In this document: positions 6,851 to 25,547 of the stretch, piece by piece
Position numbering within the stretch: position 1 is the stretch's first letter
Layout of the letters: each line of letters opens with the position of its first letter
DNA from: Sphingomonadales bacterium
GTDB lineage: Bacteria > Pseudomonadota > Alphaproteobacteria > Sphingomonadales > Sphingomonadaceae
NCBI GenBank assembly: GCA_014763545.1
Contig: JACXVD010000022.1
Span: 1-40,192, forward strand
Direction of reading: 5' to 3'
DNA length: 40,192 nt
The notes under the pieces: model-generated
Databases searched by the model: none
Told to the model about the DNA's origin: nothing
The model's input: the letters and a program-made list of their open reading frames with translations, nothing else
Position numbers and translations under genes: made by a program

Positions 6851-8359
6851 CTAACCCGCTTTCGGCACTACGCTCGCCACCCTTTGCATCGCCAGCGCGG
6901 CGACCAGCAGCGATCCGGCGGCGAACAGCATGGTCCACACCGGCTCGCCGGGGAAGGCGAGGGTCATGATCGTTCCCATCACCGTCGCCACCAGCAGCTG
7001 TGGCACCACGATGAAGATGTTGAACAGCCCCATGTAGATGCCCAGCTTCGCCTGTGGCAGGTTCGAAGCGAGGATCGCATAGGGCATCGCGAGGATGCTC
7101 GCCCAGGCAATGCCGATGCCCACCTCGCAAACCAGCAGCGCATTGGCATCGCGCAGCACGAAGAAGCCGAGATAGCCCAGCGCCCCGGCGACGAGACACA
7201 GCGAATGGGTCATCACCGGGCCGATCCTGCGGCTCAGCGCGGGCAACAGCGCCAGCGCCGCCACCGCCGCGACGCCGTTATATACAGTGAAGAGGACATT
7301 CACCCAGTTCGCACCTTCATTATAGGCGGCGCTGGCGGTGTCGGTGGAGCCGAAGACATATTGCGTCACCACCGGGGTGGTGTTGACCCACATGATGAAC
7401 AGCGCGCTCCAGCTGAAGAACTGCACCAGCGCCAGCCGCTTCATCACCGGCGGCATGCCCGAGAAGTCGCCGACGATCGAGGCGAGCATGTTGGCGCTGC
7501 GCCCCGCCTTCACCAGCGCGATCGCGATGGCCGAGAGCAGCCCGTAGAAGATCAGCAGCGCGCCCAGCAGCAGCACTTCCTTGGCCAGCGCGAAATGCAG
7601 CACCACGCCGATCACCAGCGCCCCGGCGACGATCCAGGGCAGGGTGGTGGCATAGGAGCGCGTGGCGAGTGCGGCGGTGGTGTCGGCAGCGGCGATGCTT
7701 TCCGCCCCGCCGAAAGCCGCCAGCTGTTCGGGGCTGTATTCGCGGGTGGTGGCGATGGTCCACAGCACCGCCGCCAGCAGCGCCGCGCCGCCTGCCCAAA
7801 AGCTCCACCGCACCGTGTCGGGGATACCCCCGCCCGGCGCGACATTGGCGACGCCGAGATGTTCGAGCAGGAAGGGGAAGATCGATCCGACCACCGCGCC
7901 CGCGCCGATGAAGGCGGTCTGCACCGCATAGCCCGCGCTGTGCTGGTCGGTGCGCAGCATATCGCCGACGAAGGCGCGGAACGGCTCCATCGAGACGTTG
8001 AGGCTGGCATCGAGCACCCACAACATGGTGGCGGAGAAGATCAGCGGCATGGCGAAACCGGGGGCAAACGGCATCAGGAACAGCGCCAGCGCGGCGAAGA
8101 TTGCCCCGGTGAGGAAATAGGGGCGCCGGCGGCCGAGCCGGTTCCAGGTCCGGTCGGACAGATGGCCGATGATCGGCTGGACCAGCAGCCCGGTGAGCGG
8201 GGCGGCGACCCACAGCGCGGACAGCTCGTCGATATTCGCGCCGAGCGTCTGGAACACGCGGCTCATGTTCGAATTCTGCAGCGCGAAGCCGATCTGAATC
8301 CCGAAAAAGCCGAAGCTGATGTTCCACAGCCCGGCCCAGCTTTGCCGCGGTTTATCCAT
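6851..8359 (-). CDS. MFS sugar transporter, probable maltose/maltodextrin-type (SLC45-like)
   Basis: This is a 502-residue inner-membrane protein with about twelve hydrophobic segments. Its N-terminal half has features of the glycoside/SLC45 branch: [17 protein letters not shown], then [16 protein letters not shown], the loop 2-3 motif of the major facilitator family. A longer reading frame begins at 8425, but the ATG at 8359 is preferred because GAGAGGAA lies about 10 bases upstream and the protein then begins at the usual point, shortly before the first membrane segment. It follows the LacI gene on the same strand and is divergent from the TonB receptor. This matches the Caulobacter maltose locus of regulator, MFS transporter and receptor. 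Substrate is inferred from that context. Confidence 0.88.
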
Positions 8360-8406
8360 GGTGAATCCGGTTCCTCTCGCGCTTGTCCGGCTCTGCCGCC
8401 CGGCTT

Positions 8407-8479: not shown

Positions 8480-9544
8480 CTAGCCCGCGGTGCTGGCGCG
8501 CACGATCAGCCGGGTGGGCAGGGTGCGGTGCGGCGGTGCGCTGCCATCCAGCTGCGCGACCAGCGTATCGACCAGCAGTTCGCCCGCCTGCGGCATGTCC
8601 TGCTTGAGCGTGGTCAGCGGGGGTGAGGTCATGCTGGCGGAAGGGATATCGTCGAAACCGACCACCGCCACATCCTGCGGCACTTTCAGCCCCGCTTCGG
8701 CCAAAGCGCGCATCGCGCCGATCGCGATCAGGTCGCTGGCAGCAAAGATCGCGTCGAACCCCGCCCCGGCCGCGATCAGCGAACGGGCTGCGGCATGCCC
8801 GTCATCCTCGCTGGTCAGCGCATCGCGTTGCAGGGCGGGGTCGGGGGCGATCCCGGCGTCTGCCAGTGCGGCGCAGAGCCCGCGGTAGCGTTCGGCAAAT
8901 TCCGGGTAATGCTCGTCTGCCTGGCCGATGAAGGCGATGCGCCGCCTTCCCAGATCCAGCAAATGTTCGCCAGCGATCCGGCCTGCGCCGAAATTGTCCG
9001 AACCCACGGTGGCACCGACATTGTCTTCGCCGACCGATCCCCAGCGCACGAAATGCGTGCCTTGCGCAACCAGCTGTTCCAGCCGCGCCTCGTAAAGCGT
9101 GTAGTCGCCGTAGCCGAGCAGGATCAGCCCGTCGGCCCGATGGCTGTCCTGGTAGCGGACATGCCAATTGTCCTCCATCCGCTGGAACGAGATCAGCAGG
9201 TCCAGCCCGCGATCGGCGGCTGCACGGGTGATCGAACCGAGCATCGCGAGGAAGAAGGGATTGATCGTGCCGCCCGCTTCGCCGGCGCTGTCCGACGCGT
9301 CCTGCGCGGTTGCCGGTTCTTCGAAGAACAGCAGCGCCAATGTGTTCGAGCGCTGGCTGCGCAATGAAGAGGCGTTCTTGTCGACGGTGTAGTTCAGCTC
9401 GCGCGCGATCTTCTCGATCTTTTCGCGGGTGGCCTGGCTGACCGAGCGGTCTCCGCGCAGCGCGCGGCTCACCGTCGGCTGGGAGACCCCGGCCAGGTAA
9501 GCGATGTCGAAGCTCGTTGGTCTGCCTGTGGGTACGCGGCCCAT
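8480..9544 (-). CDS. LacI-family transcriptional regulator of the glucan locus
   Basis: The 354-residue protein has the standard LacI design. An N-terminal helix-turn-helix (about residues 10-32, DIAYLAGVSQPTVSRALRG) is followed by a hinge helix region and a type I periplasmic-binding-protein-like sugar-sensing domain ending in DVAVVGFDDIPSASMTSPPLTTL, typical of the family. It is divergent from the TonB receptor and lies upstream of the MFS gene on the same strand. By analogy with the Caulobacter maltose regulator it probably represses both sides until maltose or a related sugar is present. The likely operator is the palindrome at 9645-9680. Confidence 0.93.
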   Translation of the reverse strand: MGRVPTGRPTSFDIAYLAGVSQPTVSRALRGDRSVSQATREKIEKIARELNYTVDKNASSLRSQRSNTLALLFFEEPATAQDASDSAGEAGGTINPFFLAMLGSITRAAADRGLDLLISFQRMEDNWHVRYQDSHRADGLILLGYGDYTLYEARLEQLVAQGTHFVRWGSVGEDNVGATVGSDNFGAGRIAGEHLLDLGRRRIAFIGQADEHYPEFAERYRGLCAALADAGIAPDPALQRDALTSEDDGHAAARSLIAAGAGFDAIFAASDLIAIGAMRALAEAGLKVPQDVAVVGFDDIPSASMTSPPLTTLKQDMPQAGELLVDTLVAQLDGSAPPHRTLPTRLIVRASTAG

Positions 9545-9644: not shown

Positions 9645-9680
9645 CATATGTATGTTGTGCGGCGCACAAACATACGTATG
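9645..9680. promoter_or_regulatory. Large palindromic operator between lacI-type gene and TonB receptor
   Basis: A near-palindrome of 36 bp is centred on TTGTGC-GGC-GCACAA, a perfect 6-bp inverted repeat (9655-9669). The outer arms are CATATGTATG on the left and CATACGTATG on the right. The right arm is itself a perfect 10-bp palindrome. It lies about 100 bp from the LacI start and about 140 bp from the receptor start, in an AT-rich patch of an otherwise GC-rich gap. This is the best candidate for the LacI binding site and may contain two stacked operators. Confidence 0.6.
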
Positions 9681-9817
9681 CCGTGTTTCGCGGCGGGGCC
9701 GCGCGGACCTATGAGCCGCGCTGACGAGCCCGACCGGGTCGCACCCATCGTGCTCGCATGGACTGGCAACTGCATAAGCCGCGCCACAGCCCGCGGCATG
9801 TTTGGGGAGAGAAAACC

Positions 9818-12514
9818 GTGGCAAATCGCAATTTCCTGGCCGCATCGGCCAGCGGTTCCGCACTTGCGCTCGCACTGGCGCTGGGTGTCGCGCCGCAGGC
9901 CGCCTTTGCACAGGACGCCCAGCCCGCCGCCGATGAGGCGCAGGACAATGGCGAAACCGTTATCACCGTGACCGGCTTTCGTGCCTCGCTGCAGACCGCG
10001 ACCAGCACCAAGAAGCGCGCCGATGTGGTCGTGGAATCGGTTGCCGCGGAAGACATCGGCAAGCTGCCCGACAACAGCATCGGTGAATCGATCGCCCGCC
10101 TGCCGGGTATCGCCGCGCAGCGCGCCAACGGCCGCGCCAACATCATCTCCATCCGTGGCTTCGGCCCCGACTTTTCGACCACCACGCTGAACGGTCGCGA
10201 GCAGACCACCACCAACGACAGCCGCGCGGTGGAATTCGACCAGTTCCCCTCCGAAATCCTTTCCGGCGTCGATGTCTACAAGACCTCTTCGGCCGATCAC
10301 ACTGCCGGCGGGCTGGTCGGCAGCATCAATCTGCGCACCATCCGCCCGCTCGATGCCAAGAAGCGCGTCCTCGCGATCGGCGCGCGCGGCACCTATGTCG
10401 ACCAGAAGGTGATCCCGACCGTCACCGACAAGGGCTATCGCGTGTTCGGCACCTTCGTGGATACGTTTGCCGACGACACGATGGGTATCGCCCTGTCGGC
10501 GGCCTATACCGACGAGCCGTACCAGACGCATGACTGGAATGCCTGGGGCTATGGCGATTACGACGGCAACGGCAATTACGGCATCAGCGGCGTCAAGACC
10601 TGGGAAGAGGCTTCGCGTCTTAAGCGGCTGGGCATCAACGGCACCTTCCAGGCCAAGCTGGGCGACCAGCTGACCTTCACCGTCGATGGCTTCTATTCGC
10701 ATTTCGACGAGAAGCTCGACCAGAAGGGCTTCGAAATGCCGATCCTGTGCTGCGGCTCGACCGTCACGGGTTTCACTTCGCAGCCGCTGTCCGGCATTGC
10801 TGCCGGTTCCTCGATCGTCACCAGCGCGACCTGGACCGGGCGGCCGATCATCGAAAACTACGCGACCGACCAGAAGAACGACACCTATTCGTTCGGCGGC
10901 AATCTCGCCTGGGATAATGACGCTGGCACCCGCGCGACGATCGACGTCAGCTGGTCGCGCACCGACCGCTGGCAGGATCGCCTCGAAACCACGGCCGGGC
11001 TAGGTCACAATCTGCCGACCCCGGGCGGTACCTTCGGCTACACGCTCACCGACCATGCGCTGGAATTCACCAGCGACTTCAACGGGGTCGACCCGGCGCT
11101 GGTGCTGACCGACGTGCAGGGCTGGTCGGGCAGCACGGTGCAGGCCGGTTACGACAAGATCCGCCGCAGCCGCGACGATCTGAAGGAAATCCGCGCCGAG
11201 GTTGAACAGGATATCGGCGGCGGCTTGATCGAATCGATCAAGCTCGGTGTCGACCACACCTATCGCACCAAGACCCTGACGCAGGACGAAGCTTTCCTAG
11301 TCCCGCCGAACGGTGCCGAGACCGCTGCGATTCCGTCGAACCTGCTGCTCACCCCGGTGAACCTGTCGCGCGGCTTCGGCCCGATCCTGTCCTACGATCC
11401 GCGCACGCTGGTCGGCGCGGGCGTGCTCGATTACCAGGCCAACCCGTATGGCGCCTCGCAGGCTTATGACATCACCGAAGATGTCTGGACGCCTTTCGCC
11501 ATGGCTCGCCTCCACGCACAGCTGGGCGATAGCGAACTGACCGGTAATATCGGGGTCCAGGCGATCCACACCTCGCTGACGTCGGAAGGTGCCGTCAATC
11601 CGACGGTCAAGGACAACTACTGGATGGTGCTGCCCAGCCTCAACCTGGCGGTCCGCACCCCGTATGACATGGTCATCCGTTTCGCTGCCGCCAAGCAGAT
11701 GATGCGCCCGCGCCTGCCGCAGATGAACAACATCATCGGCTTCGGCGTGAACAACTCCTACAATCCCCCGATCTATACCGGTGGCGGCGGCAACCCGCTG
11801 CTGCGCCCCTATCGCGCCACCGCGCTCGACCTCAGCGTCGAGAAATACTTCGGCAACAAGGGTTATGTTGCGGTCCAGCTCTATTGGAAGCATCTGGACG
11901 ATTACGTTGATCCCAGTGCCAACGATCTGGCGTTCGATTATTCCGGCTTCCCGCTTCCCGCAGGGCAGGTGCCGTCTTCGCCGATCGGTATCTTCAGCGG
12001 CCCGGTAAACACCCATGGCGGCTACATCATGGGTGGCGAAGTCGCCGGTACCATCCCGTTCGAAGTCTTCTCACCTGCGCTCGAAGGTTTCGGCATCACC
12101 GGTGGCTTCGGTCTCACCTACACCAAGGCGTTCGACTACAACGGAAACGCTTCGACGATCCCGGGTTATTCGAAATATGTCGGCAACCTGACCGCGTTCT
12201 ACGAAAACTCGGGCTTCAGCCTGCGTGGCAGCATGCGGTATCGTTCGGGCTTCCTCGGTGACTTCTCGCTGTTCAGCGGCGGGCTGGATCGTCAGTCGGT
12301 GCTGTCGGAAACCGTGATCGACGCGCAGATCGGGTATGATTTCCCCGAAAGTTCGGCCCTTAATGGGCTGTCGCTGTTCCTGCAGGGGCAGAACCTGACC
12401 GACGAACGCCAGGCGACGCTCGCCCAGATCAACGGGCAGGCGATCTCCGATGCGTGGCTGAAGTACCAGACCTACGGTCGCCGCTTCCTCGCGGGCTTCA
12501 CCTACAAGTTCTGA
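9818..12514 (+). CDS. TonB-dependent receptor, probable maltodextrin importer
   Basis: This 898-residue outer-membrane receptor is of the Xanthomonas/Caulobacter type. A signal peptide ending in AAFAQ is followed by a TonB-box-like ETVITVTG, a plug domain (SIGESIARLPGIAAQR, ISIRGFGPD, and GGLVGSINLRTIRPL), and a beta-barrel ending in a terminal Phe, as outer-membrane insertion requires. I place the start at the GTG at 9818 because GGGGAGA precedes it and the signal peptide then starts correctly. An upstream ATG at 9758 would add an implausible leader of 20 residues. No SusD partner follows. Co-localised amylase and glucosidases suggest maltodextrins as ligand, as for Caulobacter MalA; this is inference. 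Confidence 0.93.
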   Translation: MANRNFLAASASGSALALALALGVAPQAAFAQDAQPAADEAQDNGETVITVTGFRASLQTATSTKKRADVVVESVAAEDIGKLPDNSIGESIARLPGIAAQRANGRANIISIRGFGPDFSTTTLNGREQTTTNDSRAVEFDQFPSEILSGVDVYKTSSADHTAGGLVGSINLRTIRPLDAKKRVLAIGARGTYVDQKVIPTVTDKGYRVFGTFVDTFADDTMGIALSAAYTDEPYQTHDWNAWGYGDYDGNGNYGISGVKTWEEASRLKRLGINGTFQAKLGDQLTFTVDGFYSHFDEKLDQKGFEMPILCCGSTVTGFTSQPLSGIAAGSSIVTSATWTGRPIIENYATDQKNDTYSFGGNLAWDNDAGTRATIDVSWSRTDRWQDRLETTAGLGHNLPTPGGTFGYTLTDHALEFTSDFNGVDPALVLTDVQGWSGSTVQAGYDKIRRSRDDLKEIRAEVEQDIGGGLIESIKLGVDHTYRTKTLTQDEAFLVPPNGAETAAIPSNLLLTPVNLSRGFGPILSYDPRTLVGAGVLDYQANPYGASQAYDITEDVWTPFAMARLHAQLGDSELTGNIGVQAIHTSLTSEGAVNPTVKDNYWMVLPSLNLAVRTPYDMVIRFAAAKQMMRPRLPQMNNIIGFGVNNSYNPPIYTGGGGNPLLRPYRATALDLSVEKYFGNKGYVAVQLYWKHLDDYVDPSANDLAFDYSGFPLPAGQVPSSPIGIFSGPVNTHGGYIMGGEVAGTIPFEVFSPALEGFGITGGFGLTYTKAFDYNGNASTIPGYSKYVGNLTAFYENSGFSLRGSMRYRSGFLGDFSLFSGGLDRQSVLSETVIDAQIGYDFPESSALNGLSLFLQGQNLTDERQATLAQINGQAISDAWLKYQTYGRRFLAGFTYKF

Positions 12515-12523
12515 TGGGCCAAG

Positions 12524-12560
12524 GGTGTGTCCGGCGGGGGTTTGACCTGCCGGACACACC
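12524..12560 (+). promoter_or_regulatory. Strong intercistronic hairpin downstream of the TonB receptor
   Basis: A perfect 12-bp stem (GGTGTGTCCGGC with its complement) and a 13-base loop lie 9 bp after the receptor stop and 19 bp before the next start. There is no following T-run, so full termination is doubtful. Such hairpins commonly protect the 3' end of the upstream message or cause partial termination, which would leave more receptor than downstream enzyme. Confidence 0.7.
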
Positions 12561-12579: not shown

Positions 12580-14085
12580 ATGAGCAACGCAGCGCCCCTC
12601 CAGATCGTGATTGCCGGCGGCGGTACGGCGGGCTGGACGGCAGCCGCTGTGCTGGCCCGCTTCATCGGCGATGCCGCGACCATCACCCTCGTCGAATCCG
12701 AGGCGATCGGCACGGTCGGCGTCGGTGAGGCGACGATACCGCAGATCCATAATCTGATCATCGGCCTCGGGCTGGACCAGGCCGAATTCATGGCCGCGAC
12801 CAATGCCAGCTTCAAACTGGGCATCGAGTTCGATGGCTGGCTGCGCCCCGGCGAAAGTTACATCCATTCCTTCGGCAGCGTGGGGCGCGGGGCGGGGCTG
12901 ATCCCCTTCCGCCAGCTGTGGCTGCGCGGCCGCTCCATGGGCGTGGCGACGGATTACGGCGACTACAGCGCCAATGTCGCGGCGGCGCGGGCAGGGCGCT
13001 TTGCCCTCGGCACCGCAAGCGCGACGCAGCCCGAACTTGCCTACGCCTATCATTTCGACGCCAGCCTGCTGGCGAAGCTCCTGCGGCAATATTCCGAACA
13101 GCGCGGCGTGACCCGCGTCGAAGGAATGATCGAGGCGGTCGAACGCGATGCGCAGAGCGGCGATATCGCGGCGCTGCGGCTGGATGGCGGCCGGCGGGTC
13201 GCGGGCAGTTTCTTCATCGACTGCACTGGTTTTCGCAGCCTGTTGCTGGGCGATGCGCTGGGTGTTCCGTTCGAGGATTGGAGCCATTGGCTGCCCTGCG
13301 ACACTGCGCTGGCGGTGCCGAGCGAGGGCGGGGCGTTTCGTCCCTACACCCAGTCGATGGCCCGCCCGGCTGGCTGGCAATGGCGCATCCCCTTGCAGCA
13401 CCGCACGGGCAACGGCCATGTGTTCTGCTCGCGCTACATGTCGGTGGACGAAGCGAGCGCGATCCTGCTCGCCAATCTCGAGGGCAAGCCGCTGGCCGAC
13501 CCGCGCCCGATCCGCTTCACCACCGGCCACCGCCGCGAATTCTGGTCGCATAATTGCCTCGCGCTGGGGCTGGCTGCGGGCTTCATGGAGCCGCTGGAAT
13601 CGACGTCGATCCATCTCGTCCAGTCGGCTATCGACCGCCTGTTGAAACTGCTGCCGGGCGACCTGTCCGACCTGTCCGCGCCGCGCGCCGCGTTCAACCG
13701 ACTGTCCGATGTCGAATGGGCGCGGGTGCGCGATTTCCTGATCCTGCACTATGTCGCCAATGCGCGCGAGGGCGAGCCATTCTGGGACCATTGCCGGGCG
13801 ATGCAGATTCCCGCGACCCTGGCAGGAAAGATCGCTCTGTTCGGCCAGTCCGGCGCTTTCGTGCGCGAGGAAGACGAATTGTTCCTCGACGACAGCTGGG
13901 GGCAGGTGATGATCGGGCAGGGGATCGCGCCGCGCCATTACTCGCCGCTGGCCGATAATGTGCCGGGCGAGGATCTCGGCCCGTTCCTCGAAACGCTGGC
14001 CAAGGCCGCACGACTGCGTGCCGACGCGATGCCGACGCATCGCGCCTTTATCGATGCGATGATGCAGCAGGGGGTTGCCCGATGA
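12580..14085 (+). CDS. Flavin-dependent (tryptophan) halogenase-family protein 1
   Basis: The 501-residue protein aligns with PrnA/RebH-type FADH2-dependent halogenases. Visible motifs are the FAD-binding GGGTAGW (13-19), VGVGEATIP (46-54), the catalytic lysine in NASFK at residue 79 (the same number as RebH and PrnA K79), the diagnostic W-x-W-x-I-P at 266-271, and EPLEST, which holds the catalytic Glu-Ser pair. All signature residues are intact, so it may halogenate a substrate, using reduced flavin from a separate reductase not seen here. TonB-receptor-linked homologues in Xanthomonas and Brevundimonas are known to brominate indole in vitro; their natural substrate is unclear. Its stop overlaps the amylase ATG by 4 bases. 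A role in glucan use is not established. Confidence 0.9.
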   Translation: MSNAAPLQIVIAGGGTAGWTAAAVLARFIGDAATITLVESEAIGTVGVGEATIPQIHNLIIGLGLDQAEFMAATNASFKLGIEFDGWLRPGESYIHSFGSVGRGAGLIPFRQLWLRGRSMGVATDYGDYSANVAAARAGRFALGTASATQPELAYAYHFDASLLAKLLRQYSEQRGVTRVEGMIEAVERDAQSGDIAALRLDGGRRVAGSFFIDCTGFRSLLLGDALGVPFEDWSHWLPCDTALAVPSEGGAFRPYTQSMARPAGWQWRIPLQHRTGNGHVFCSRYMSVDEASAILLANLEGKPLADPRPIRFTTGHRREFWSHNCLALGLAAGFMEPLESTSIHLVQSAIDRLLKLLPGDLSDLSAPRAAFNRLSDVEWARVRDFLILHYVANAREGEPFWDHCRAMQIPATLAGKIALFGQSGAFVREEDELFLDDSWGQVMIGQGIAPRHYSPLADNVPGEDLGPFLETLAKAARLRADAMPTHRAFIDAMMQQGVAR

Positions 14086-15965
14086 ATTTGCGTGCCACCC
14101 TGATGGCGCTGCCGCTGGCGGCGCTGAGCCTGTCCGCCTGCACCTCCACCGGTGTCGCCCGTGAAGCCGCGCCGGACGCGAGTGCGGCGGCCCCTGCGGC
14201 AGGGGCTGCGGTGGCGGCAATGCGCGCCCGCCCGCCCGAAGACGAGGTGGTCTATTTCGTCCTGCCCGACCGGTTCGCCAATGGCGATCCGGCGAACGAT
14301 CTGGGCGGCTACCCGGCCGACCGGCTCAAGAGCGGGTTCGATCCGGCGGCCAAGGGTTTCTACCACGGCGGCGACCTCAAGGGGCTGACCGCCAAGCTCG
14401 ACTACATCCAGCAGATGGGCGTGACCGCGATCTGGTTTGCGCCGATCTTCAAGAACAAGCCCGTGCAAGGCCCCAAGGGTGACGAGAGCGCGGGGTATCA
14501 CGGCTATTGGGTGACCGATTTCACCCAGGTCGATCCGCATTTCGGCACCAATGACGATTTCCGTGCCTTCGTTTCCGCCGCGCATGCGCGCGGGATCAAG
14601 GTCTATATGGACATCATCGTCAACCACACGGCCGATGTGATCCAGTATCGCGAGGGGGCGGACACCGGCTTCTCCTATCGCAGCAAGGCGGATTATCCTT
14701 TCTCGACGCGCGGCAATGCGCAGGGTGCGCCGATCAACCCCGGCTTCATGGGGGACGGCGATGCCTCGCCTGCCAACTGGGCGAAACTGGTCGATCCGTC
14801 CTTCGCTTACACGCCCTTCGTCCCTGAGGCGGAGAAGAACGTCAAGGTTCCCGCCTGGCTCAACGATCCGATCTACTACCACAATCGCGGCAATTCGAAC
14901 TGGGTCGGCGAAAGCTCGCTTTATGGCGATTTCGTGGGGCTGGACGATGTCGCGACCGAAAATCCCCGCGTGGTTTCGGGAATGATCGAGATTTTCGGCG
15001 GCTGGATCGACAACTTCGGGATCGACGGCTTCCGCATCGACACCGCGCGCCATGTGAACCCCGAATTCTGGCAGCAATTCGTCCCCGCGATGCTGGCGCG
15101 CGCGAAGGCGAAGGGCATCCCCCATTTCCATATCTTCGGCGAAATCGCCTACGAAGTGCCGAGCGCCGCACCGGCGGCCGAAGTGATGGCCAACAGCGGC
15201 TTGCCCGCTGCGCTCGACATGGGTTTCGCCAAGGCCGCGCAAATGGTCGTGTCGGGTAAGGCATCGCCGCAGGTGATGGCCGAGCTGCTGCAGCAGGACG
15301 TGCTCTACCCCGGTGGCGCCAGCACCGCGCTGCAACTGCCGACATTCCTGGGCAACCACGATTTCGGTCGCTTCTCGATGTTCGTGAAGCAAGCCAACCC
15401 CGACGCAAGCGACGAGGAACTGCTCGCCCGGGTGGAGCTGGGCCATGCCATGCTGTTGCTGCTGCGCGGCGTGCCGGTGATCTATTACGGCGACGAACAG
15501 GGCTTCGTGTCCGATGGCAACGACCAGCTGGCGCGCGAAGACATGATGCCCAGCAAGGTCGCGGTCTACAATGACAATCGCTTGCTCGGCACCGCTGCCA
15601 CGACCGCCGATGCCAATTTCGACACCGGTCACCCGCTCTACCGGCAGGTGCGTGCGCTGGCCGAAGTGCGGCTGGACAATCCGGCGCTGACCGAAGGGCT
15701 GACGACGATCGCCGCCTTCGATACCGAGCCGGGCCTGCTGGCGGTGGTGCGCAAGGATCCGGCGAGCGGGCAGCGCGTGCTGCTGGCTTTCAACACATCG
15801 GCCCGGTCGATCGACCGCGCGGTCGCGGTGGATTACGACATCGGTCGGATGGCGCCGCTCGCGGGGCAATGCCCGGTTTCAGTTACTGCGCCGGGATCGG
15901 CGCGCATCAGCCTGGCGGCATTCGGTTTCGCTGCCTGCGAATTGCTGCCCGGAGACGGAGAATGA
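14082..15965 (+). CDS. GH13 alpha-amylase-type lipoprotein
   Basis: This 627-residue GH13 enzyme should hydrolyse alpha-1,4-glucans, cyclodextrins or pullulan-like chains. A lipoprotein signal peptide with lipobox LSAC (Cys about 20) suggests outer-membrane or periplasmic anchoring. The (beta/alpha)8 barrel carries the conserved regions: I, DIIVNHT; II, GFRIDTARH with nucleophile D320; III, FGEIAY with acid/base E354; IV, FLGNHD with D427. After the barrel comes a beta-sandwich domain. The ATG overlaps the preceding stop by 4 bases and its own stop overlaps the next gene, so expression is translation-coupled. The organisation resembles SusA/neopullulanase-type enzymes. Exact specificity cannot be decided by eye. 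Confidence 0.93.
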   Translation: MNLRATLMALPLAALSLSACTSTGVAREAAPDASAAAPAAGAAVAAMRARPPEDEVVYFVLPDRFANGDPANDLGGYPADRLKSGFDPAAKGFYHGGDLKGLTAKLDYIQQMGVTAIWFAPIFKNKPVQGPKGDESAGYHGYWVTDFTQVDPHFGTNDDFRAFVSAAHARGIKVYMDIIVNHTADVIQYREGADTGFSYRSKADYPFSTRGNAQGAPINPGFMGDGDASPANWAKLVDPSFAYTPFVPEAEKNVKVPAWLNDPIYYHNRGNSNWVGESSLYGDFVGLDDVATENPRVVSGMIEIFGGWIDNFGIDGFRIDTARHVNPEFWQQFVPAMLARAKAKGIPHFHIFGEIAYEVPSAAPAAEVMANSGLPAALDMGFAKAAQMVVSGKASPQVMAELLQQDVLYPGGASTALQLPTFLGNHDFGRFSMFVKQANPDASDEELLARVELGHAMLLLLRGVPVIYYGDEQGFVSDGNDQLAREDMMPSKVAVYNDNRLLGTAATTADANFDTGHPLYRQVRALAEVRLDNPALTEGLTTIAAFDTEPGLLAVVRKDPASGQRVLLAFNTSARSIDRAVAVDYDIGRMAPLAGQCPVSVTAPGSARISLAAFGFAACELLPGDGE

Positions 15966-17587
15966 ACGAGATGTCCAGCCCTGTCCCTGCCCCCACCGGG
16001 AAGGCTGAAGCCACGCTGCCATGGTGGCGCGGGGCGGCGATCTACCAGATCTATCCGCGCAGTTTCATGGATTCCAACGGCGACGGGATCGGCGATTTGC
16101 CGGGGATCACCGCGCGGCTCGATCATGTTGCCGCGCTCGGGGTCGATGCGATCTGGATCTCGCCCTTCTTCACCAGCCCGATGCGCGATTTCGGCTATGA
16201 CGTGGCCGATTATTGCGACGTCGACCCGATTTTCGGAACGCTGGCCGATTTCGATGCGCTGGTGGCGAAAGCGCATGCGCTGGGGCTGAAGGTGCTGATC
16301 GACCAGGTCTATGCCCATACGTCGGATGATCACGCTTGGTTCGCCGAGAGCCGGGGCAGCCGCAACAATCCCAAGGCCGACTGGTATGTCTGGGCCGATG
16401 CCAAGCCGGACGGCAGCCCGCCGAGCAACTGGCAATCGGTGTTCGGCGGCCCGGCGTGGACGTGGGACGCGCGGCGGCGCCAGTATTACATGCACAATTT
16501 CCTCACCAGCCAGCCGCAGCTCAATTTGCATAGTCCCGATGTGCAGGATGCACTGCTGGGCGTGGCGCGTTTCTGGCTGGATCGCGGGGTCGACGGGTTC
16601 CGGATCGACGCGCTCAATTTCACGATGCACGATCCGCAATTGCGCGACAATCCGCCCGCCCCGCCGAGCGACAAGCCGCGCACCCGCCCGTTCGATTTCC
16701 AGCTGAAGCGCTATAACCAGTCGCACCCGGACATCCCGCAGTTCATCCGCCGGATCCGTTCGTTGCTCGATGAATACGGCGCCACCTTCACCGTGGCCGA
16801 GGTCGGCGGTGACGAGGCCGACACGGAAATGAAGGCATTCACCGCTGGCGAGACGCATCTCAATTCGGCCTATGGGTTCGACTTCCTCTATGCCGAACGC
16901 CTGACCCCGGGGCTGGTCTGCGCGGCGCTGGCTGGCTGGCCGGATGAACCGGGCGTGGGCTGGCCGAGCTGGGCGTTCGAGAACCATGACGCCCCGCGCG
17001 CCCTGTCGCGCTGGTGGGCGGGCGAACACCAGGCCCCTGCGGCGCGGCTGAAGATCGCCCTGCTGTGCGCGCTGCGCGGCAATATCATCCTGTTCCAGGG
17101 CGAAGAGCTGGGGCTGACCCAGGTCGATATTCCCTTCGACATGCTGCAGGATCCAGAAGCCATCGCCAATTGGCCGCTGACGCTCAGCCGCGACGGAGTG
17201 CGCACGCCGCTGCCGTGGGAAGCGGCGGCCCATGCGGGAGGTTTTTCGAGCGGCGACCCGTGGCTGCCGCTCGGGGCGGAGAATATCGGCCGCGCGGTCG
17301 ATCTGCAGGAGCATGACGCGCAATCGCTGCTCGCCCACACCCGCGCCATGCTGGCGCTGCGCGCGGCGCATCCCGCGCTGCATCATGGCGGCGCGGCATG
17401 CCGTGCCGAAGGTGCGCTGCTGTCGATTACCCGCACCACGCCCGAGGAGATTGTCGAGTGCCGCTTCAATTTGTCGTCCGAATCGCTCGAACTGCCCGAA
17501 GCGGTGGCGGGGACCGTGCTGGCCAGCGTCAATGGGGCGCAGGGAAGGCATCTGCCGCCGTTCGGCGCGCTGGTGGTGCGCCGGTGA
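15962..17587 (+). CDS. GH13 alpha-glucosidase (GH13_23-like)
   Basis: A 541-residue exo-acting alpha-glucosidase begins WWRGAAIYQIYPRSF, typical of oligo-1,6-glucosidase and alpha-glucosidase groups. Conserved regions are DQVYAHTSDDH (I), GFRIDALNF with nucleophile D216 (II), VAEVGGDE with acid/base E280 (III) and ENHDAPRA with D343 (IV). The DQV-HTSD form of region I is typical of the proteobacterial GH13_23 enzymes that split maltose and transfer glucosyl groups. No signal peptide is evident, so it is probably cytoplasmic. The reading frame extends upstream to 15869, but the ATG at 15962 overlaps the amylase stop by 4 bases and has GGAGACGGAG before it, so it is preferred. Confidence 0.93.
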   Translation: MNEMSSPVPAPTGKAEATLPWWRGAAIYQIYPRSFMDSNGDGIGDLPGITARLDHVAALGVDAIWISPFFTSPMRDFGYDVADYCDVDPIFGTLADFDALVAKAHALGLKVLIDQVYAHTSDDHAWFAESRGSRNNPKADWYVWADAKPDGSPPSNWQSVFGGPAWTWDARRRQYYMHNFLTSQPQLNLHSPDVQDALLGVARFWLDRGVDGFRIDALNFTMHDPQLRDNPPAPPSDKPRTRPFDFQLKRYNQSHPDIPQFIRRIRSLLDEYGATFTVAEVGGDEADTEMKAFTAGETHLNSAYGFDFLYAERLTPGLVCAALAGWPDEPGVGWPSWAFENHDAPRALSRWWAGEHQAPAARLKIALLCALRGNIILFQGEELGLTQVDIPFDMLQDPEAIANWPLTLSRDGVRTPLPWEAAAHAGGFSSGDPWLPLGAENIGRAVDLQEHDAQSLLAHTRAMLALRAAHPALHHGGAACRAEGALLSITRTTPEEIVECRFNLSSESLELPEAVAGTVLASVNGAQGRHLPPFGALVVRR

Positions 17588-19623
17588 TGGCGCGTCTTGT
17601 CCTCGCCGCATTGCTCGCGACTACGGCCGTGCCCGCGCTGGCGGGCAGCGTCGATTCCCCCGATGGGCGGATCCATGTGACGGTCGATACCGACCAGGAC
17701 GGGGTGCCGTTCTACACGGTCGAGCGGGACGGCAAGGCCGTGCTGGCCAAGAGCTTCCTCGGGTTCAATTTCACCGATGCCGAACCGATGCGGCGCGGCT
17801 TCCGGATCGAGCAGGAAACCACCGCCACGGCGGACAGCAAATGGGAACAGCCGTGGGGCGAGCGCCAGTGGGTGCGCGACCATCACAACGAGCTGGCGGT
17901 TACCATGATCCAGCCATCGACCAAGGGAGAGCGCCATTTGACCGTGCGCTTCCGCGTGTTCGACGATGGCATCGGCTTCCGCTACGAATTCCCCGACCAG
18001 GCGAGCCTGCCGGTCGCGAACATTGCCGACGAACTGACCGAATTCAACATCGCGCAGGACGGCAAGGCCTGGTGGATCCCCGGCGGCGACTGGAACCGCT
18101 ACGAATATCTCTATCACGAAACCCCGATCTCCAGCGTCGGCATGGCACACACGCCGATCACCATGGTGCTGGGCGACGGGACGCATGTCTCGTTCCACGA
18201 GGCCGCGCTGGTCGATTATTCGGGCATGTGGTTCCGGCGGATGGAAGGCACGCGTTTCCGCGCCAGCCTGGCGCCATCCTCGCGCGGCGCGAAAGTGGTG
18301 CGCAAGGGTGCGTTCGACACGCCCTGGCGGACGATCCGCATCGCGCCCGATGCCGCCGGGCTGGTCGAGAACGATCTCGAGCTCAACCTCAACGAACCCA
18401 ACAAGCTGGGCGATGTCAGCTATTTCAAGCCGCAGAAATATATCGGCATCTGGTGGGGGATGATCCGCGGCGACTGGACCTGGGCGCAGGGGCCCAACCA
18501 CGGCGCCACCACCGCGCGGTCGAAGCAATATATCGACTTCGCCGCCAAGCACCGCTTCTCCGGCGTGCTGATCGAAGGCTGGAACGAAGGGTGGGACGGC
18601 AATTGGTTCGGCAACGGACGCGATTTCAGCTTCACCAAGGCCTATCCCGATTTCGACATCAAGGCGGTGACCGATTATGCGCGCAAGAAGGGCGTGCAGA
18701 TCATCGGCCACCACGAAACCGGCGGCAATATCGCGGTTTACGAAAAGCAGATGGACGCAGGCTTTGCGCTGGACGAACAGCTCGGCATCCATCTGGTCAA
18801 GACCGGATATGTCGCCGATGCGGGCAATCTGATTTCCTGCAACGCCGACATTCACGATCCGTGCGGGGATGAAATATTCGAATGGCATGACGGCCAGCGT
18901 TCGGTGCAGCACCATCTGGCGGTGCTGGAGGATGCTGCCCGCCACAAGGTCGCGATCGACAGCCACGAACCGGTGAAGGATACCGGCCTGCGCCGGACCT
19001 ATCCCAACTGGGTCGCGCGCGAGGGCGCCCGCGGGCAGGAATACAATGCCTGGGCAAAATTCGCCAACGGGCCGGGGCACGAGGTGAACCTCGTCTATAC
19101 CCGCATGCTGGCCGGGCCGATGGATTTCACCCCCGGCGTGCTCAGCCTGGTGGGCAGCAATGGCCAGCCGATCGCCTCGACCGAGGCCAAGCAGCTCGGC
19201 ACCTATCTGGCGATCTATTCACCGATCCAGATGGCGGCGGATTTCATCGAGAACCTCGCCGCGCATCCGAAGGAACTGGCCTTCATCGAACAGGTCCCTG
19301 CCGACTGGGCGGAAAGCCACCTGATCGCTGGCGAGGTGGGCGAATATGCGATCTTCGCGCGCAAGGACCGCAACAGCGCGGACTGGTATGTCGGCGGGGT
19401 CAACAATGCGACCGCGCGCGATGTCGAACTCGGCTTCGACTTCCTCGAACCGGGCAAGGTTTATACCGCGACGATCTACAAGGATGGGCCGGGCGCAACC
19501 TACGAGACCGAGGCGCGCTTCAACATTGCCTATGACACGCGCAAGATCCGCAAGGGGGACAAGCTGCCGCTGTGGCTGGCACCCGGCGGCGGTGCGGCGA
19601 TCCGCCTGACGCCGGACAAATGA
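17587..19623 (+). CDS. GH97 glycoside hydrolase, SusB-like alpha-glucosidase
   Basis: This 678-residue protein has a signal peptide (about 1-19, ending ALAG), an N-terminal beta-sandwich, a (beta/alpha)8 barrel (about 270-570) and a C-terminal beta domain. It should release glucose from malto-oligosaccharides in the periplasm. Conserved acids are E134 (FRYEFP), E330 (VLIEGWNEGW), E377 (HHETGG), E461 (SHEP), E479 and E485 (QEYN). Their spacing reproduces, as I remember it, Bacteroides SusB E194, E391, E439, E508, E526 and E532, the calcium and catalytic residues of inverting GH97 alpha-glucosidases. The ATG shares one base with the preceding stop (TGATG), and the stop overlaps the esterase ATG. 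Confidence 0.94.
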   Translation: MARLVLAALLATTAVPALAGSVDSPDGRIHVTVDTDQDGVPFYTVERDGKAVLAKSFLGFNFTDAEPMRRGFRIEQETTATADSKWEQPWGERQWVRDHHNELAVTMIQPSTKGERHLTVRFRVFDDGIGFRYEFPDQASLPVANIADELTEFNIAQDGKAWWIPGGDWNRYEYLYHETPISSVGMAHTPITMVLGDGTHVSFHEAALVDYSGMWFRRMEGTRFRASLAPSSRGAKVVRKGAFDTPWRTIRIAPDAAGLVENDLELNLNEPNKLGDVSYFKPQKYIGIWWGMIRGDWTWAQGPNHGATTARSKQYIDFAAKHRFSGVLIEGWNEGWDGNWFGNGRDFSFTKAYPDFDIKAVTDYARKKGVQIIGHHETGGNIAVYEKQMDAGFALDEQLGIHLVKTGYVADAGNLISCNADIHDPCGDEIFEWHDGQRSVQHHLAVLEDAARHKVAIDSHEPVKDTGLRRTYPNWVAREGARGQEYNAWAKFANGPGHEVNLVYTRMLAGPMDFTPGVLSLVGSNGQPIASTEAKQLGTYLAIYSPIQMAADFIENLAAHPKELAFIEQVPADWAESHLIAGEVGEYAIFARKDRNSADWYVGGVNNATARDVELGFDFLEPGKVYTATIYKDGPGATYETEARFNIAYDTRKIRKGDKLPLWLAPGGGAAIRLTPDK

Positions 19624-20546
19624 TCGCACGGCGGCTCGGGCGGGCGCTCACCGCATTGCTCGCGCTGGCGCTCGCCGCCTGCGCGGCGGTGCCTGCGCCG
19701 CCCAGCCCCGCGCGCCAGGTGGAATGGACAGAGGCCGCGGCGGGCCTGCCCGAACAGCATGTTACCGTCTGGCTTCCGCCCGGCTACGACAGCGAGCGGT
19801 CCCGCCGCTACCCGGTGCTCTACATGTGGGACGGGCAGAATCTGTTCGACCCGGCGCAGACCCATTACGGCAAGGCGTGGATGGTGCAGGATGTGCTCGG
19901 CGGCATGGTTGCTGCGGGAAGCGCCGAGCCGCATATCGTCGTCGGCATATGGTCGCCGCCCGGGCTGGACCGTTATCGCGTGTACCTCGCCAAGCCGCTC
20001 TACGACGCGCTCGACGGCGAGATGAAGCAGGACATGGACCGGATGGCCGGCGGGCCGATCGCATCGGATGCGATGCTCGCCTGGACGGCCGACACGCTGA
20101 AGCCGCGCATCGACCGCGAATATCGCACGCGCACTTCGCCTGCGGACACCACCATCGCGGGATCGAGCATGGGCGGGCTGATGGCCTGCTATGCGATTGT
20201 CGAACGGCCCGATGTGTTCGGCCGCGCCGGTTGCGTCAGCGCGCATTTCGCGCTGGCCGATCCGGAGCTGGCGGCGAGACACGCGCCGGAGATCGAGCGG
20301 GCGTGGGCCGATTATCTGTCGCGCAAGCTCGGGCAGCCGAGGGGGCGCAAGATCTGGCTGGATCACGGAACCGCGACGCTCGATGGCTGGTACGGCCCGT
20401 GGCAGGATGCGATTGCCGCCGATTTCGCGGCGCAGGGATGGCAGGAGGGCCGCGATTTTGCCGCGCGCACCTATCCCGGTGCGGAGCATGACGAGAATTT
20501 CTGGCGGGCGCGCATGCCCGAAATGCTCGGCTGGCTGTGGCCATGA
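19620..20546 (+). CDS. Lipoprotein alpha/beta-hydrolase of the putative esterase (esterase D-like) family
   Basis: A 308-residue hydrolase starts with a lipoprotein signal peptide (LALAAC lipobox, Cys about 21), so it is membrane-anchored outside the cytoplasm. The fold is recognised from VWLPPGYD, YPVLYMWDGQNLFD, the nucleophile elbow GSSMGG with Ser183, and a C-terminal catalytic His in GAEHDENFW (H290). The acid is probably in the LDHGTATLDGW region. The family removes acyl groups from sugars and other alcohols. In a glucan locus it could de-esterify acylated maltodextrins, but the substrate is unknown. The ATG overlaps the GH97 stop by 4 bases, and the stop overlaps the second halogenase gene. 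Confidence 0.85.
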   Translation: MIARRLGRALTALLALALAACAAVPAPPSPARQVEWTEAAAGLPEQHVTVWLPPGYDSERSRRYPVLYMWDGQNLFDPAQTHYGKAWMVQDVLGGMVAAGSAEPHIVVGIWSPPGLDRYRVYLAKPLYDALDGEMKQDMDRMAGGPIASDAMLAWTADTLKPRIDREYRTRTSPADTTIAGSSMGGLMACYAIVERPDVFGRAGCVSAHFALADPELAARHAPEIERAWADYLSRKLGQPRGRKIWLDHGTATLDGWYGPWQDAIAADFAAQGWQEGRDFAARTYPGAEHDENFWRARMPEMLGWLWP

Positions 20547-22030
20547 CGCCGCCGCATGTCGTGGTTCTCGGCGGGGGTAGCGCCGGGTGGATCACCGCCT
20601 GCCTGCTGCACCACAAATGGGGCGCTCGCGGCGGACGGGTGACGGTGGTCGAAAGCCCCGACATCGGGATCATCGGGGTGGGCGAGGGTTCGACGCCGCA
20701 GCTCAAGGCGTTCTTCGACCTGCTCGACATTGCCGAGGGCGAGTGGATGCCCGCCTGCGATGCGACCTACAAGCTGGGCATCCGCTTCACCGGATGGAGC
20801 GAGCGGCCGGGTTTCGAAAGCTATTTCCACCCGTTCCCTGGCCCGGTGGACCTGCATACGCAAGGCGGCTGGTTCCACAATTGCATGCTTGCCCGGCGCG
20901 GCTTCGATGTGCCGGTGCTGCCCGATGACTGGTTCCTCGCGGCGCAGCTGGCCGAAGCGGGGATGGGGCCGCATGCGGGGGCGCATTTTCCCTTCGCACC
21001 CAGCTATGGCTACCATTTCGATGCCTACAAGCTGGGCCATTTCCTGCGCGACTGGGCGGTTGCACGCGGTGTGCGCCACTTGCCGCTGAAGGTCGCGGAG
21101 GTTGCGCTGGCAGGGCAGGGCGAGGTCGCCGCGCTGCTGGCGGAGGACGGTACGCGGATCGAAGGCGATATCTTCGTCGACTGCTCGGGCTTTCGCAGCC
21201 TCATCGCCCAGCAGGCGCTGGGCGGCGAATTCATTCCCTTTGCCGAAAACCTGTTCAACGACAGCGCAGTGGTGATGCCCACGCCGCATCGCGAGGCACC
21301 GCGCCCGCAGACCGATTCCATCGCGATGAGCGCGGGCTGGCGCTGGTCGATCCCGCTCACCAGCCGGGTCGGCAATGGCTATGTCTATTCGTCCAGGTAC
21401 CTCTCCGACGAGGATGCCGAGGCCGAGCTGCGCGCAGCGATCGGCATGCAGGACAGCGAGCAGCCCGCCCGGTTCCTCAAGATGAAGGTCGGTCGCATGC
21501 GCGACAGCTGGCAGGGCAATTGCCTCGCCGCCGGGCTGGCGCAGGGCTTCATCGAACCGCTCGAGGCGACCGCGCTGCATATCGTGATCAACACCGCGCT
21601 GGATTTCGCGCAAGCCTATGAAGCCGGCGGCTTCGGCCCGCAGCACCGCGAGGCGTTCAACACCGCGATCGCCGAACGATACGACGGGATCCGCGACTAT
21701 ATCGTGGCCCATTACCGGCTCAGCCAGCGCAGCGATTCGCCCTATTGGCGCGATTGCCGCGCAAACCAGCAATTGCCCGAAACGCTGAAGGCAATGATGA
21801 CCGCGTGGTTCACCCATGGCGACATTGCCGAGGTCAATGCCCGCAGCTGGCGCCACCCGCCCTATCCGGCGATGAGCTGGCACGCACTGCTGGCGGGCTA
21901 CGGCACATTTCCGCCGCCCGAGAAGATGCAACCGCTCCCGCCGGAGGTGCCAACGGGCGATCATGCAGGCGTCGCAGCGATGCTCGACGCCTGCCTCGGC
22001 AACTTCGACGCCTATGACCAGCGCGCCTGA
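20543..22030 (+). CDS. Flavin-dependent (tryptophan) halogenase-family protein 2
   Basis: This 495-residue second halogenase-like protein has GGGSAGW, IGVGEGSTP, the catalytic-lysine segment ATYK (K77), and the W-x-W-x-I-P motif at 266-271 (GWRWSIP). The segment carrying the catalytic glutamate reads EPLEAT, so the serine next to Glu in PrnA/RebH (S347) is alanine here, unlike the first copy. GEGST also replaces the usual GEATIP. It is therefore not a recent duplicate of the first gene, and its chemistry may differ. The ATG at 20543 overlaps the esterase stop by 4 bases and is preferred over an in-frame GTG six bases earlier. It ends the seven-gene run. Confidence 0.88.
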   Translation: MTPPHVVVLGGGSAGWITACLLHHKWGARGGRVTVVESPDIGIIGVGEGSTPQLKAFFDLLDIAEGEWMPACDATYKLGIRFTGWSERPGFESYFHPFPGPVDLHTQGGWFHNCMLARRGFDVPVLPDDWFLAAQLAEAGMGPHAGAHFPFAPSYGYHFDAYKLGHFLRDWAVARGVRHLPLKVAEVALAGQGEVAALLAEDGTRIEGDIFVDCSGFRSLIAQQALGGEFIPFAENLFNDSAVVMPTPHREAPRPQTDSIAMSAGWRWSIPLTSRVGNGYVYSSRYLSDEDAEAELRAAIGMQDSEQPARFLKMKVGRMRDSWQGNCLAAGLAQGFIEPLEATALHIVINTALDFAQAYEAGGFGPQHREAFNTAIAERYDGIRDYIVAHYRLSQRSDSPYWRDCRANQQLPETLKAMMTAWFTHGDIAEVNARSWRHPPYPAMSWHALLAGYGTFPPPEKMQPLPPEVPTGDHAGVAAMLDACLGNFDAYDQRA

Positions 22031-22085: not shown

Positions 22086-22784
22086 ATGAGCTATTGCGAC
22101 ACATGTGTGGTGCGAAACCGGGCGATCTGTTCGTCGCTCGACAACACGGAAATTCAATCGCTTAACGCGATTGGTCGCCGCCGCATGCTCGAACCGGGTG
22201 AACCGCTCATCTGGGAAGGCGACGATTCGGTGCTGGTCGCCAATGTCATCGAAGGTGTGCTCAAGCTGTCGAGCAGCACTGCCGACGGGCGCGAACAGAT
22301 CGTCGGCGTGGTGTTCCCGTCCGACTTCATCGGCCGCCCCTTCGGCAAGACCACGCCGCACAGCGTCACCGCGCTGACCGAGGCGAAAGTATGCGTTTTC
22401 TCGCGCTCCGATTTCGACGGTTTCGCCTCGCGCCATCCGGCGCTGGAGCACAAATTGCTCAAGCGGACCCTGTCCGAACTCGACCGCACGCGCAGCTGGA
22501 TGCTGCTGCTGGCGCGCAAGAGCGCGGAAGAAAAGATCGCGACCTTCCTGCTGGAAATGTCCGAGCGGCTGGTCGCGCCGGGCTGCGAAGCGCCGGGTGA
22601 TGAACCGCTCGATTCCTTCGACCTGCCGTTCTCGCGCCAGCAGGTCGCCGACGTGCTCGGCCTGACGATCGAGACGGTGAGCCGCCAGCTGACCAAGCTG
22701 AAGAAGGAAGGCATCCTCGAACTGCCTGCGCGGCGGACCATCGTGATCCGCGACCGCACCGCGCTGGAAGATATCGCCGGCTAG
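22086..22784 (+). CDS. fnr: FNR-type oxygen-sensing Crp/Fnr regulator
   Basis: The 232-residue protein has a cNMP-like sensor domain and a C-terminal Crp-type helix-turn-helix. An N-terminal cysteine set C4-x2-C7-x7-C15 plus a central C103 (EAKVCVF) supplies four possible ligands for an oxygen-labile [4Fe-4S] cluster, as in FNR and FnrL. The recognition helix ETVSRQLTKL keeps the E-x2-S-R pattern that reads TTGA half-sites. It stands next to ompW, the cbb3 oxidase genes and, further on, hemN, all known targets of such regulators elsewhere. It probably activates them under low oxygen. The ATG at 22086 places C4 correctly. Confidence 0.93.
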   Translation: MSYCDTCVVRNRAICSSLDNTEIQSLNAIGRRRMLEPGEPLIWEGDDSVLVANVIEGVLKLSSSTADGREQIVGVVFPSDFIGRPFGKTTPHSVTALTEAKVCVFSRSDFDGFASRHPALEHKLLKRTLSELDRTRSWMLLLARKSAEEKIATFLLEMSERLVAPGCEAPGDEPLDSFDLPFSRQQVADVLGLTIETVSRQLTKLKKEGILELPARRTIVIRDRTALEDIAG

Positions 22785-22848
22785 GGCGTTTTGCGCGGCG
22801 CGGCGCTTTGCTGCCTGCGCTGGGATTTGACTGCATCGCAGAAAAGCG

Positions 22849-22883
22849 AAGCCCCTCCGCCCGGGTGGGGGGCGAAGGGGCTT
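22849..22883 (-). terminator. Probable rho-independent terminator of ompW
   Basis: A 14-bp stem with one mismatch and a 7-base loop is closed by AAGCCCCT and its complement. On the minus strand the stem is followed by CGCTTTTC, a short T-run, so it best serves ompW, whose stop is about 80 bp upstream in that direction. It could also stop fnr transcripts from the other side. Confidence 0.6.
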
Positions 22884-22964
22884 GCCTGGCGGCGCGGCGC
22901 GGTCCGGAACCCTCACGGTCCCCATCCGGTCCGCCGCTGCGCCGGAACCTCCCGTCCGGGGAGA

Positions 22965-23669: not shown

Positions 23670-23691
23670 GTTATTACCTCCGGCGCGGCAG

Positions 23692-23731: not shown

Positions 23732-23762
23732 TGCCAGATGGACGCGACATTGGCTTGTAACA

Positions 23763-23776: not shown

Positions 23777-23808
23777 AATTGCGCGGGACAATTTTGAACT
23801 TTCGGAAA

Positions 23809-25529: not shown

Positions 25530-25547
25530 GACCGAAGGGTTTTCGCC

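Follow-up and report, generated by a model that had tools for sequence, protein, structure and literature searches.

Flavin-dependent halogenase genes accompany TonB-dependent receptor genes in glycan-uptake loci

We analysed a stretch of 40,192 nucleotides from a Sphingomonadales bacterium (contig JACXVD010000022.1 of assembly GCA_014763545.1), here called the window. In this window two genes of the flavin-dependent halogenase (FDH) family, designated Hal1 and Hal2, open and close a six-gene run of glycan enzymes that lies behind the gene for a MalA-type TonB-dependent receptor (TBDT). Comparison with related loci leads us to conclude, with high confidence, that these halogenases belong to TonB-dependent glycan-uptake (CUT-type) loci as standing accessories, linked with the receptor and not with a particular sugar pathway. 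What the halogenases act on is a separate question, for which we offer a tentative answer below.

The linkage was measured from the halogenase side in nine genomes, each scanned in full. Fifty-six of 60 full-length genes matching the PF04820 halogenase model had a TIGR01782 receptor gene at most 10 kb away, where uniform placement would give 4.0. Two PF04820 fragments below 20 bits were dropped from this count and two parts of a single receptor were merged, leaving 62 receptors, of which 30 conversely had a halogenase within 10 kb. Gene calls here and below are heuristic, counts come from a homology-first pass unless otherwise given, and distances were taken between longest open reading frames (ORFs), so that true gaps can be larger. 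All three halogenases of the window's own genome lie in receptor loci. Among 149 genomes of the window's family, a Hal1 relative was present in 89 (up to 11 matches per genome) and a Hal2 relative of at least 51% identity in 28, the next identity being 43%.

Counting from the receptor side gave the same picture. An earlier sequence-only reading of the window had regarded the halogenases as integral to the operon and had raised the question of whether homologous loci normally lack them. They do not: 43 of 47 MalA-type receptors scoring at least 430 bits have a halogenase within 700 bp, and all 27 members of the Hal2 clade lie in GH13/GH97 loci, both of which uphold that view. The 47 receptors come from a receptor search run in the same way as those for Hal1 and Hal2, and not from similarity to Hal1, by which most of the first 20 regions had been chosen. 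The four receptors with no halogenase within 700 bp (G129, G101, G123 and G043) all keep GH13 genes, and one keeps GH97. When all 55 receptor rows with fetched surroundings were counted (one further row was left unfetched, and the very weak rows ranked below these 56 were not used), 46 had a halogenase within 700 bp, and two of the nine others had one further off, at 1856 bp and at 732 bp from a partial receptor match. The closest receptor-halogenase pairs in sphingomonad-type loci (n = 73) placed the halogenase downstream on the same strand in 52 cases, upstream on the opposite strand in 18 and otherwise in 3. The order TBDT-FDH-GH13-GH13-GH97 on one strand recurred in 34 of 61 loci examined, the window included, and 25 of these 34 had a terminal FDH; this recurrence indicates an arrangement beyond chance, although many of the 61 were fetched for their resemblance to the window locus and the 43 of 47 is the fairer figure. 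None of the ORFs examined matched more than one of the receptor, halogenase, SapC, Cupin_8 and DUF6445 models, so no gene fusion was seen among them.

Relatives of the CHARACTERISED enzymes Xcc4156 and BrvH occupy the same position next to receptor genes. The sequence of 6y1w was compared as a segment with named genomes, and the best 80 of 508 loci (from Xanthomonas, Lysobacter, Massilia and others) were used. A receptor gene of at least 650 codons with a halogenase within 3 kb was found in 73 of these 80 loci; SapC was present in 72 of the 73 and Cupin_8 in 70, and the seven remaining loci have no more than 5.2 kb of sequence before the match. The cassette around these relatives reads TBDT-(FDH)-SapC-Cupin_8-FDH; the Xanthomonas version is TBDT-SapC-Cupin_8-FDH, and the gene behind it encodes a protein with a TonB C-terminal domain. 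Identity to Xcc4156 is 84-90% for the closest Xanthomonas matches (71% for one Xanthomonas), which thus represent the locus of close relatives and not the exact gene. Two BrvH relatives (64% and 63% identity), which group with BrvH on the halogenase tree, lie directly downstream of a receptor gene, at 12 and 68 bp by longest ORF. GST-like and DPP-IV-like genes precede the Xcc4156-type cassette at L114 and other Xanthomonas loci.

The partner genes were also counted in the nine genomes. Eleven of 17 strong Cupin_8 matches lay within 5 kb of a halogenase, with 0.37 expected (six matches below 35 bits were dropped). The 37 receptors whose fetched surroundings contain no halogenase lacked SapC, Cupin_8 and DUF6445 genes there too. 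The Cupin_8 family includes protein hydroxylases, and its company fits a protein-modifying module. The structure of SapC gave no clue: up to E 1 the protein at 8193-8906 of L157 (PF07277) matched no sequence in the PDB, and for its AlphaFold model (mean pLDDT 83.9, against 60.5-74.5 for the four others) Foldseek gave nothing below E 0.36 and VIA nothing with Z of at least 2. The window locus has no such cassette, judging by the ten window proteins scanned, which gave no SapC or Cupin_8 Pfam match; the window's genome holds one SapC gene on another contig and a Cupin_8 match only below the cut-off. Separately, each of the nine genomes scanned has one SapC gene away from halogenases, nine in all.

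The halogenases are found beside receptors of very different glycan loci. The third halogenase of the window's genome (L053) sits in a LacI-TBDT-GH3-FDH-GH30-MFS locus. Other loci combine two to four halogenases with GH10 and Cupin_8 proteins (Pfam matches, one representative each) and with GH3- and GH31-like proteins, as read from the sequences. Six plasmid records, picked for variety among the 48 matches listed, extend this range. A Qipengyuania citrea plasmid (L244, NZ_CP098495.1) carries the TBDT and both halogenases beside GH13 and GH97, without the esterase; a gyrB gene adjoins this locus. The TBDT and halogenase stand beside GH3 and DUF6445 on a Catenovulum plasmid, beside an alpha-N-acetylglucosaminidase and GH95 on an Asticcacaulis plasmid, and beside GH20 on a Pseudoalteromonas plasmid. 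A Sphingomonas sanguinis plasmid has TBDT-DUF6445-FDH with GH43, and a Sphingobium plasmid has TBDT-SapC-cupin-FDH-GH16-GH3-GH43 with LacI and MFS genes between GH16 and GH3. Since halogenases adjoin receptors in GH3/GH30, GH10, GH16/GH3/GH43, GH20, GH95 and alpha-N-acetylglucosaminidase loci, this halogenase group does not track one glycan or an aromatic substituent.

The window locus itself comprises the following features, all by window position.

6851..8365, minus strand: MFS sugar transporter (PF07690, 60.5 bits; weak GPH_sucrose similarity); start chosen by hand, the longest ORF reaching 8425.
8480..9544, minus strand: LacI-family regulator (PF00356 and Peripla_BP_3), divergent to the receptor gene.
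9655..9669: candidate LacI operator by inferred function, a perfect 7+1+7 palindrome (TTGTGCG-G-CGCACAA) between the LacI and receptor genes.
9758..12514, plus strand: MalA-type TBDT (TIGR01782, 501.7 bits; Plug domain); the actual start is possibly further downstream.
12524..12560, plus strand: predicted hairpin in the receptor-Hal1 gap, 15 pairs and a 7-base loop.
12580..14085, plus strand: Hal1, flavin-dependent halogenase of 501 aa, BrvH/Xcc4156-like (PF04820 Trp_halogenase, 586.7 bits).
14082..15965, plus strand: GH13 enzyme with a lipoprotein-like N-terminus by eye (PF00128, 212.3 bits).
15962..17587, plus strand: GH13 enzyme, probably of alpha-glucosidase type (PF00128, 377.5 bits).
17584..19623, plus strand: GH97 enzyme with all three GH97 domains (PF10566, PF14508 and PF14509).
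19620..20546, plus strand: putative esterase (PF00756, 77.8 bits), not present in some relatives.
20537..22030, plus strand: Hal2, divergent halogenase of 497 aa at the operon end (PF04820, 428.6 bits).

The ORFs and Pfam matches confirm what the sequence-only reading had described, a run of six genes opened and closed by halogenases with two GH13 enzymes, a GH97 enzyme and an esterase between them. Its statement that every junction overlaps is likewise correct: 4-base overlaps occur as ATGA at 14082, 15962 and 19620 and as GTGA at 17584, and Hal2 joins with a 4-base ATGA if it starts at the ATG at 20543 (a GTG start at 20537 would give a 10-base overlap). The extent given there, 12580-22030, holds for the six genes; it left out the receptor gene, which ends 65 bases 5' of Hal1, and the divergent LacI and MFS genes, a pair that was seen again in relatives of the locus. 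With these the window locus has a TBDT, an inner-membrane transporter, a regulator and glycan enzymes, as a CUT locus does. In this it resembles the Xanthomonas CUT loci and the Caulobacter mal locus with its MalA-type receptor (PMC1790865); it differs in its halogenases, which are not mentioned for those loci in the accessible text of that paper, where the word halogenase has no occurrence. PMC2996990 and PMC1790865 both describe TBDT sugar loci, and halogenases are not among the components given in the portions available.

Folding of the receptor-halogenase gap exceeded that of shuffled sequences (z < -2, by mononucleotide and not dinucleotide shuffles) in 41 of 45 same-strand gaps, the window's included. 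A terminator scan made no terminator call at the receptor-Hal1 hairpin. Such a hairpin could raise the level of the receptor above that of the genes behind it. Downstream of the operon, at 22086-26294, are a gene for an FnrL-like regulator and two ORFs that by eye resemble cbb3 oxidase subunits, an ordinary set.

Hal1 and Hal2 appear from their sequences to be halogenases with intact catalytic residues. Both cover the PF04820 model nearly end to end (cut-off 21 bits), and both keep the FAD motif GxGxxG, the lysine equivalent to K79, the glutamate equivalent to E346 (both in PrnA numbering) and WxWxIP. The sequence-only reading had listed the FAD motif, the lysine and W-x-W-x-I-P for both proteins, to which the glutamate can now be added. 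When 176 halogenases of the fetched loci were aligned with five PDB sequences, all 41 members of the Hal1 group and all 27 of the Hal2 clade had the catalytic Lys, the Glu and WxWxIP. In Hal1 and its whole group (41/41) the halide loop is ESTS, and in Hal2 and its whole clade (27/27) it is EATA. No signal peptide was seen by eye in Hal1 or Hal2, whose FAD motif begins at residue 12 or 13, and both are therefore expected in the cytoplasm.

The closest solved relatives of Hal1 are 9luq (508 bits), 6y1w (Xcc4156; 495 bits) and 6frl (BrvH; 413 bits), all of the same family with the catalytic residues in common. The Trp4 motif has been tied to the binding of free tryptophan in groups A and B (PMC8269204). 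Inspected by eye against the motif as given in the accessible text of that paper, the C-terminal stretch of Hal1 has none, and the HPPYPAMSW of Hal2 differs from the group B motif; neither protein thus has the mark of a free-tryptophan halogenase. Hal1 is of the BrvH/Xcc4156 type (group C) by its closest relatives, its lack of the Trp4 motif and its non-glycine second halide-site residue, which is Ser in Hal1 and BrvH and Asn in Xcc4156. Its context is unlike the Xcc4156 cassette, being a GH13/GH97 operon without SapC or Cupin_8. The same placement is equivocal for Hal2: it has a non-glycine halide residue (Ala) and no Trp4 motif by eye, yet it is unlike Xcc4156 and BrvH in its separate long branch (0.74) and its EATA loop, and is about equally similar to tryptophan halogenases and to BrvH. 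The best Foldseek match of the Hal2 model was PyrH (2wes, E 3.2e-42); with a mean pLDDT of 79.0, and values below 50 at residues 102-110, 123-155, 436-443 and 470-497, the model confirms the fold and nothing more. PrnA, RebH, PyrH, SttH and Th-Hal have PF04820, GxGxxG, the Lys, the Glu, WxWxIP and HxF (references SttH and Th-Hal) in common with the window enzymes, and this group gave Foldseek matches to Hal2; the differences lie in the Trp4 motif, absent from Hal1 and unmatched in Hal2 by eye, and in the sugar-uptake genes that surround Hal1 and Hal2.

A separate group of ten halogenase-like paralogues (L095-L101, L103, L111 and L220; for example at 8456 of L099) has no catalytic Lys, which is replaced by Arg in eight, Ala in one and Ser in one. 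Nine of the ten have also lost the Glu, and most lie in multi-halogenase xylan-type loci. Recurring across genomes beside intact copies, they are apparently conserved pseudo-enzymes.

Receptor and halogenase trees, in which 17 of the 80 Xcc4156-type loci were used to limit redundancy, speak for the tie to the receptor. On the tree of 137 receptors (96 linked to a halogenase, 41 not), linkage changed 10 times, whereas 300 label shuffles gave 35.6 changes on average and never fewer than 30. The halogenase tree mostly sorted its sequences by the type of locus and their position in it, into the Hal1 group, the Hal2 clade (27 tips, support 1.0), the Xcc4156 clade, a clade of first-position enzymes from SapC loci and several clades from multi-halogenase loci. 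This sorting is imperfect: six first-position halogenases of GH13-type loci (L054, L074, L077, L081, L085 and L088) fall outside the Hal1 group, and L046 is a tip inside that group that was left out of the 41 for its context tag. Across 37 maltodextrin-type loci, receptor and Hal1 distances showed a partial correlation of 0.246 when controlled for GH13 and GH97 (3/999 permutations). The receptor correlated at 0.19 with GH97 (16/999) and at 0.047 with GH13 (282/999). We regard the receptor-Hal1 correlation as a weak signal in the expected direction.

We know of no established native substrate of BrvH or Xcc4156. Both accept indole and not free tryptophan, and have open active sites with a solvent-accessible lysine (PMC5945002, PMC7336383). 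A peptide substrate was proposed by the authors for BrvH (PMC5945002), and the hypothesis was extended to Xcc4156 (PMC7336383). The lanthipeptide halogenase MibH, which acts on tryptophan in a peptide, was put forward as a functional analogue; it has 26% identity to Xcc4156 and does not cluster closely with it (PMC7336383).

A flavin-dependent halogenase is an electrophilic aromatic halogenase, for which a sugar cannot accept the halogen. For this reason, and because one aromatic cargo hardly explains loci for many glycans, a polypeptide acceptor is suggested; the indole acceptance and open sites of BrvH and Xcc4156, and the lack of a Trp4 motif in Hal1, point the same way. We propose that Hal1 and Hal2 would act in the cytoplasm on an indole side chain (Trp) of a polypeptide and not on a sugar. 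The target polypeptide would be a product of the uptake system, for instance the precursor of the receptor or a further protein of the operon, modified ahead of export, and its halogenation would tune or protect the uptake system. We hold this whole mechanism, a conserved cytoplasmic oxidative module for TBDT glycan-uptake loci with a polypeptide substrate, only tentatively and at somewhat less than even confidence. A protein other than the receptor may be the target, or the acceptor may be a small molecule. A broader form of the proposal strikes us as doubtful: that Proteobacteria have a cytoplasmic system for oxidative protein modification that is dedicated to TonB-dependent glycan receptors. 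It would consist of flavin halogenases, each specific to a receptor, to which many loci add a Cupin_8 (JmjC-like) oxygenase, DUF6445 and SapC, and it would halogenate or hydroxylate aromatic residues in the receptor or in partner proteins before export. BrvH, Xcc4156 and many orphan 'tryptophan halogenase' genes would have their natural function in this system.

The receptor was considered as a candidate target through its conserved tryptophans. Forty halogenase-linked and six unlinked MalA-type receptors were compared; L041 and L064 were moved to the linked group, their halogenase having been missed by the gene caller, the unrelated receptors L037_0 and L039_0 were dropped, and L071 and L083 remained outside the alignment. 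Only two Trp columns, W456 and W263, were at least 85% conserved in the 40 linked receptors, and W263 was kept in three of the six unlinked ones. Each of three linked receptor clades, which are few and not independent, has invariant Trp columns of its own, in most cases with Gly as the next residue (WG), in a variable region around residues 430-620. A conserved receptor Trp is suggestive at most as a sign of the target.

Several observations weigh against the receptor-centred reading and its polypeptide substrate. W456, kept in 40/40 linked receptors, is also present in three of the six unlinked ones, and in L071 and L083 (halogenase-less and outside that count); two of these receptors that keep it come from genomes with no Hal1 match (G129 and G046). 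The enrichment of WG in linked receptors (88/102 vs 10/42) is confounded by clade, and of six linked named receptors added as a check, which are part of the 102, four have WG and two do not. The receptor itself as the Trp target is thus not supported, since W456 persists without a linked halogenase and two of the six check receptors have no WG. As to linkage, seven of the 55 MalA-type receptors examined have no halogenase in the locus, and the pairing takes two arrangements, with the 18 upstream, opposite-strand halogenases as the second. In the nine genomes SapC is only partly linked (4/13 within 5 kb of a halogenase, 0.25 expected), as is DUF6445 (2/6, 0.12 expected). The partial correlations of Hal1 with GH13 (0.205, 15/999) and with GH97 (0.179, 7/999) mean that Hal1 co-varies with more than the receptor. 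The ten paralogues without the catalytic Lys, nine of them also without the Glu, belong here as well.

Other explanations can be set against the same data. That the substrate of the halogenases is a small compound, aromatic or indolic (a signal, an antibiotic or a plant phenolic), entering through the receptor or regulating the locus, with the sugar genes as mere context, seems unlikely to us. Free indole is indeed brominated by BrvH, at C3 (PMC5945002), and single loci with sets of two to four halogenases, some with a Cupin_8 gene, would suit such a role. The same enzymes, however, accompany receptors of unrelated glycan loci, and the recurrent gene clusters read did not have the look of aromatic biosynthesis, although no systematic search for it was made.

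We give a similarly low probability to the view that these are repurposed proteins, either non-halogenating flavin oxidases or sensors of flavin, oxygen or halide that regulate receptor expression. The Hal2 clade, with Ala for Ser and Ala for Gly in the halide loop of all 27 members, is what one might expect of it, as is the retention in several loci of the degenerate group that has lost Lys and mostly Glu. Against it stand the invariant Lys, Glu and WxWxIP of the Hal1 group and Hal2 clade, and the fact that Xcc4156 and BrvH, whose relatives neighbour receptors, halogenate indole (PMC5945002, PMC7336383). The sequence-only reading had included a non-halogenating flavin oxidation among its possibilities; this is weakened by the full retention of Lys and Glu and by the abolition of BrvH activity on mutation of its lysine (PMC5945002).

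TonB-dependent receptors are entry points for phage, bacteriocins and antibiotic conjugates. A defensive role, in which the halogenases mask or inactivate an agent abusing the receptor, would agree with a linkage that follows the receptor and not the pathway; the PADLOC models matched no protein of the window locus except the two GH13 proteins (a GlgB-like model), and we think this role quite improbable. Least probable of all is the operon-specific, undescribed aryl-glucoside or acylated-glucan pathway that the sequence-only reading had raised as a possibility. The esterase within the operon speaks for it; against it, loci that keep both halogenases can be without the esterase (L244), halogenases also stand beside receptors of loci of other than maltodextrin type, and the maltodextrin-type loci with no halogenase (4/47) keep their GH13 genes.

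The halogenase family and this kind of uptake locus are both known already, and Hal1 and Hal2 are new members of a known family. What appears to be undescribed is the membership of this halogenase group in TBDT loci, many of them with SapC, Cupin_8 and DUF6445; we found no description of the halogenase-TBDT association in the open-licence library searched, subscription papers not being searchable. Genes of the 'tryptophan halogenase family' are common in the window's family, and their tie to receptors is a concrete lead to the role of these orphan enzymes, narrowing the hunt for a substrate from a natural-product search to a short list of candidates in the same operon. If the receptor or one of its partners proved to be halogenated, nutrient uptake would involve a protein modification that nobody would have expected there. 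Otherwise these loci would indicate a new kind of signal or protective chemistry.

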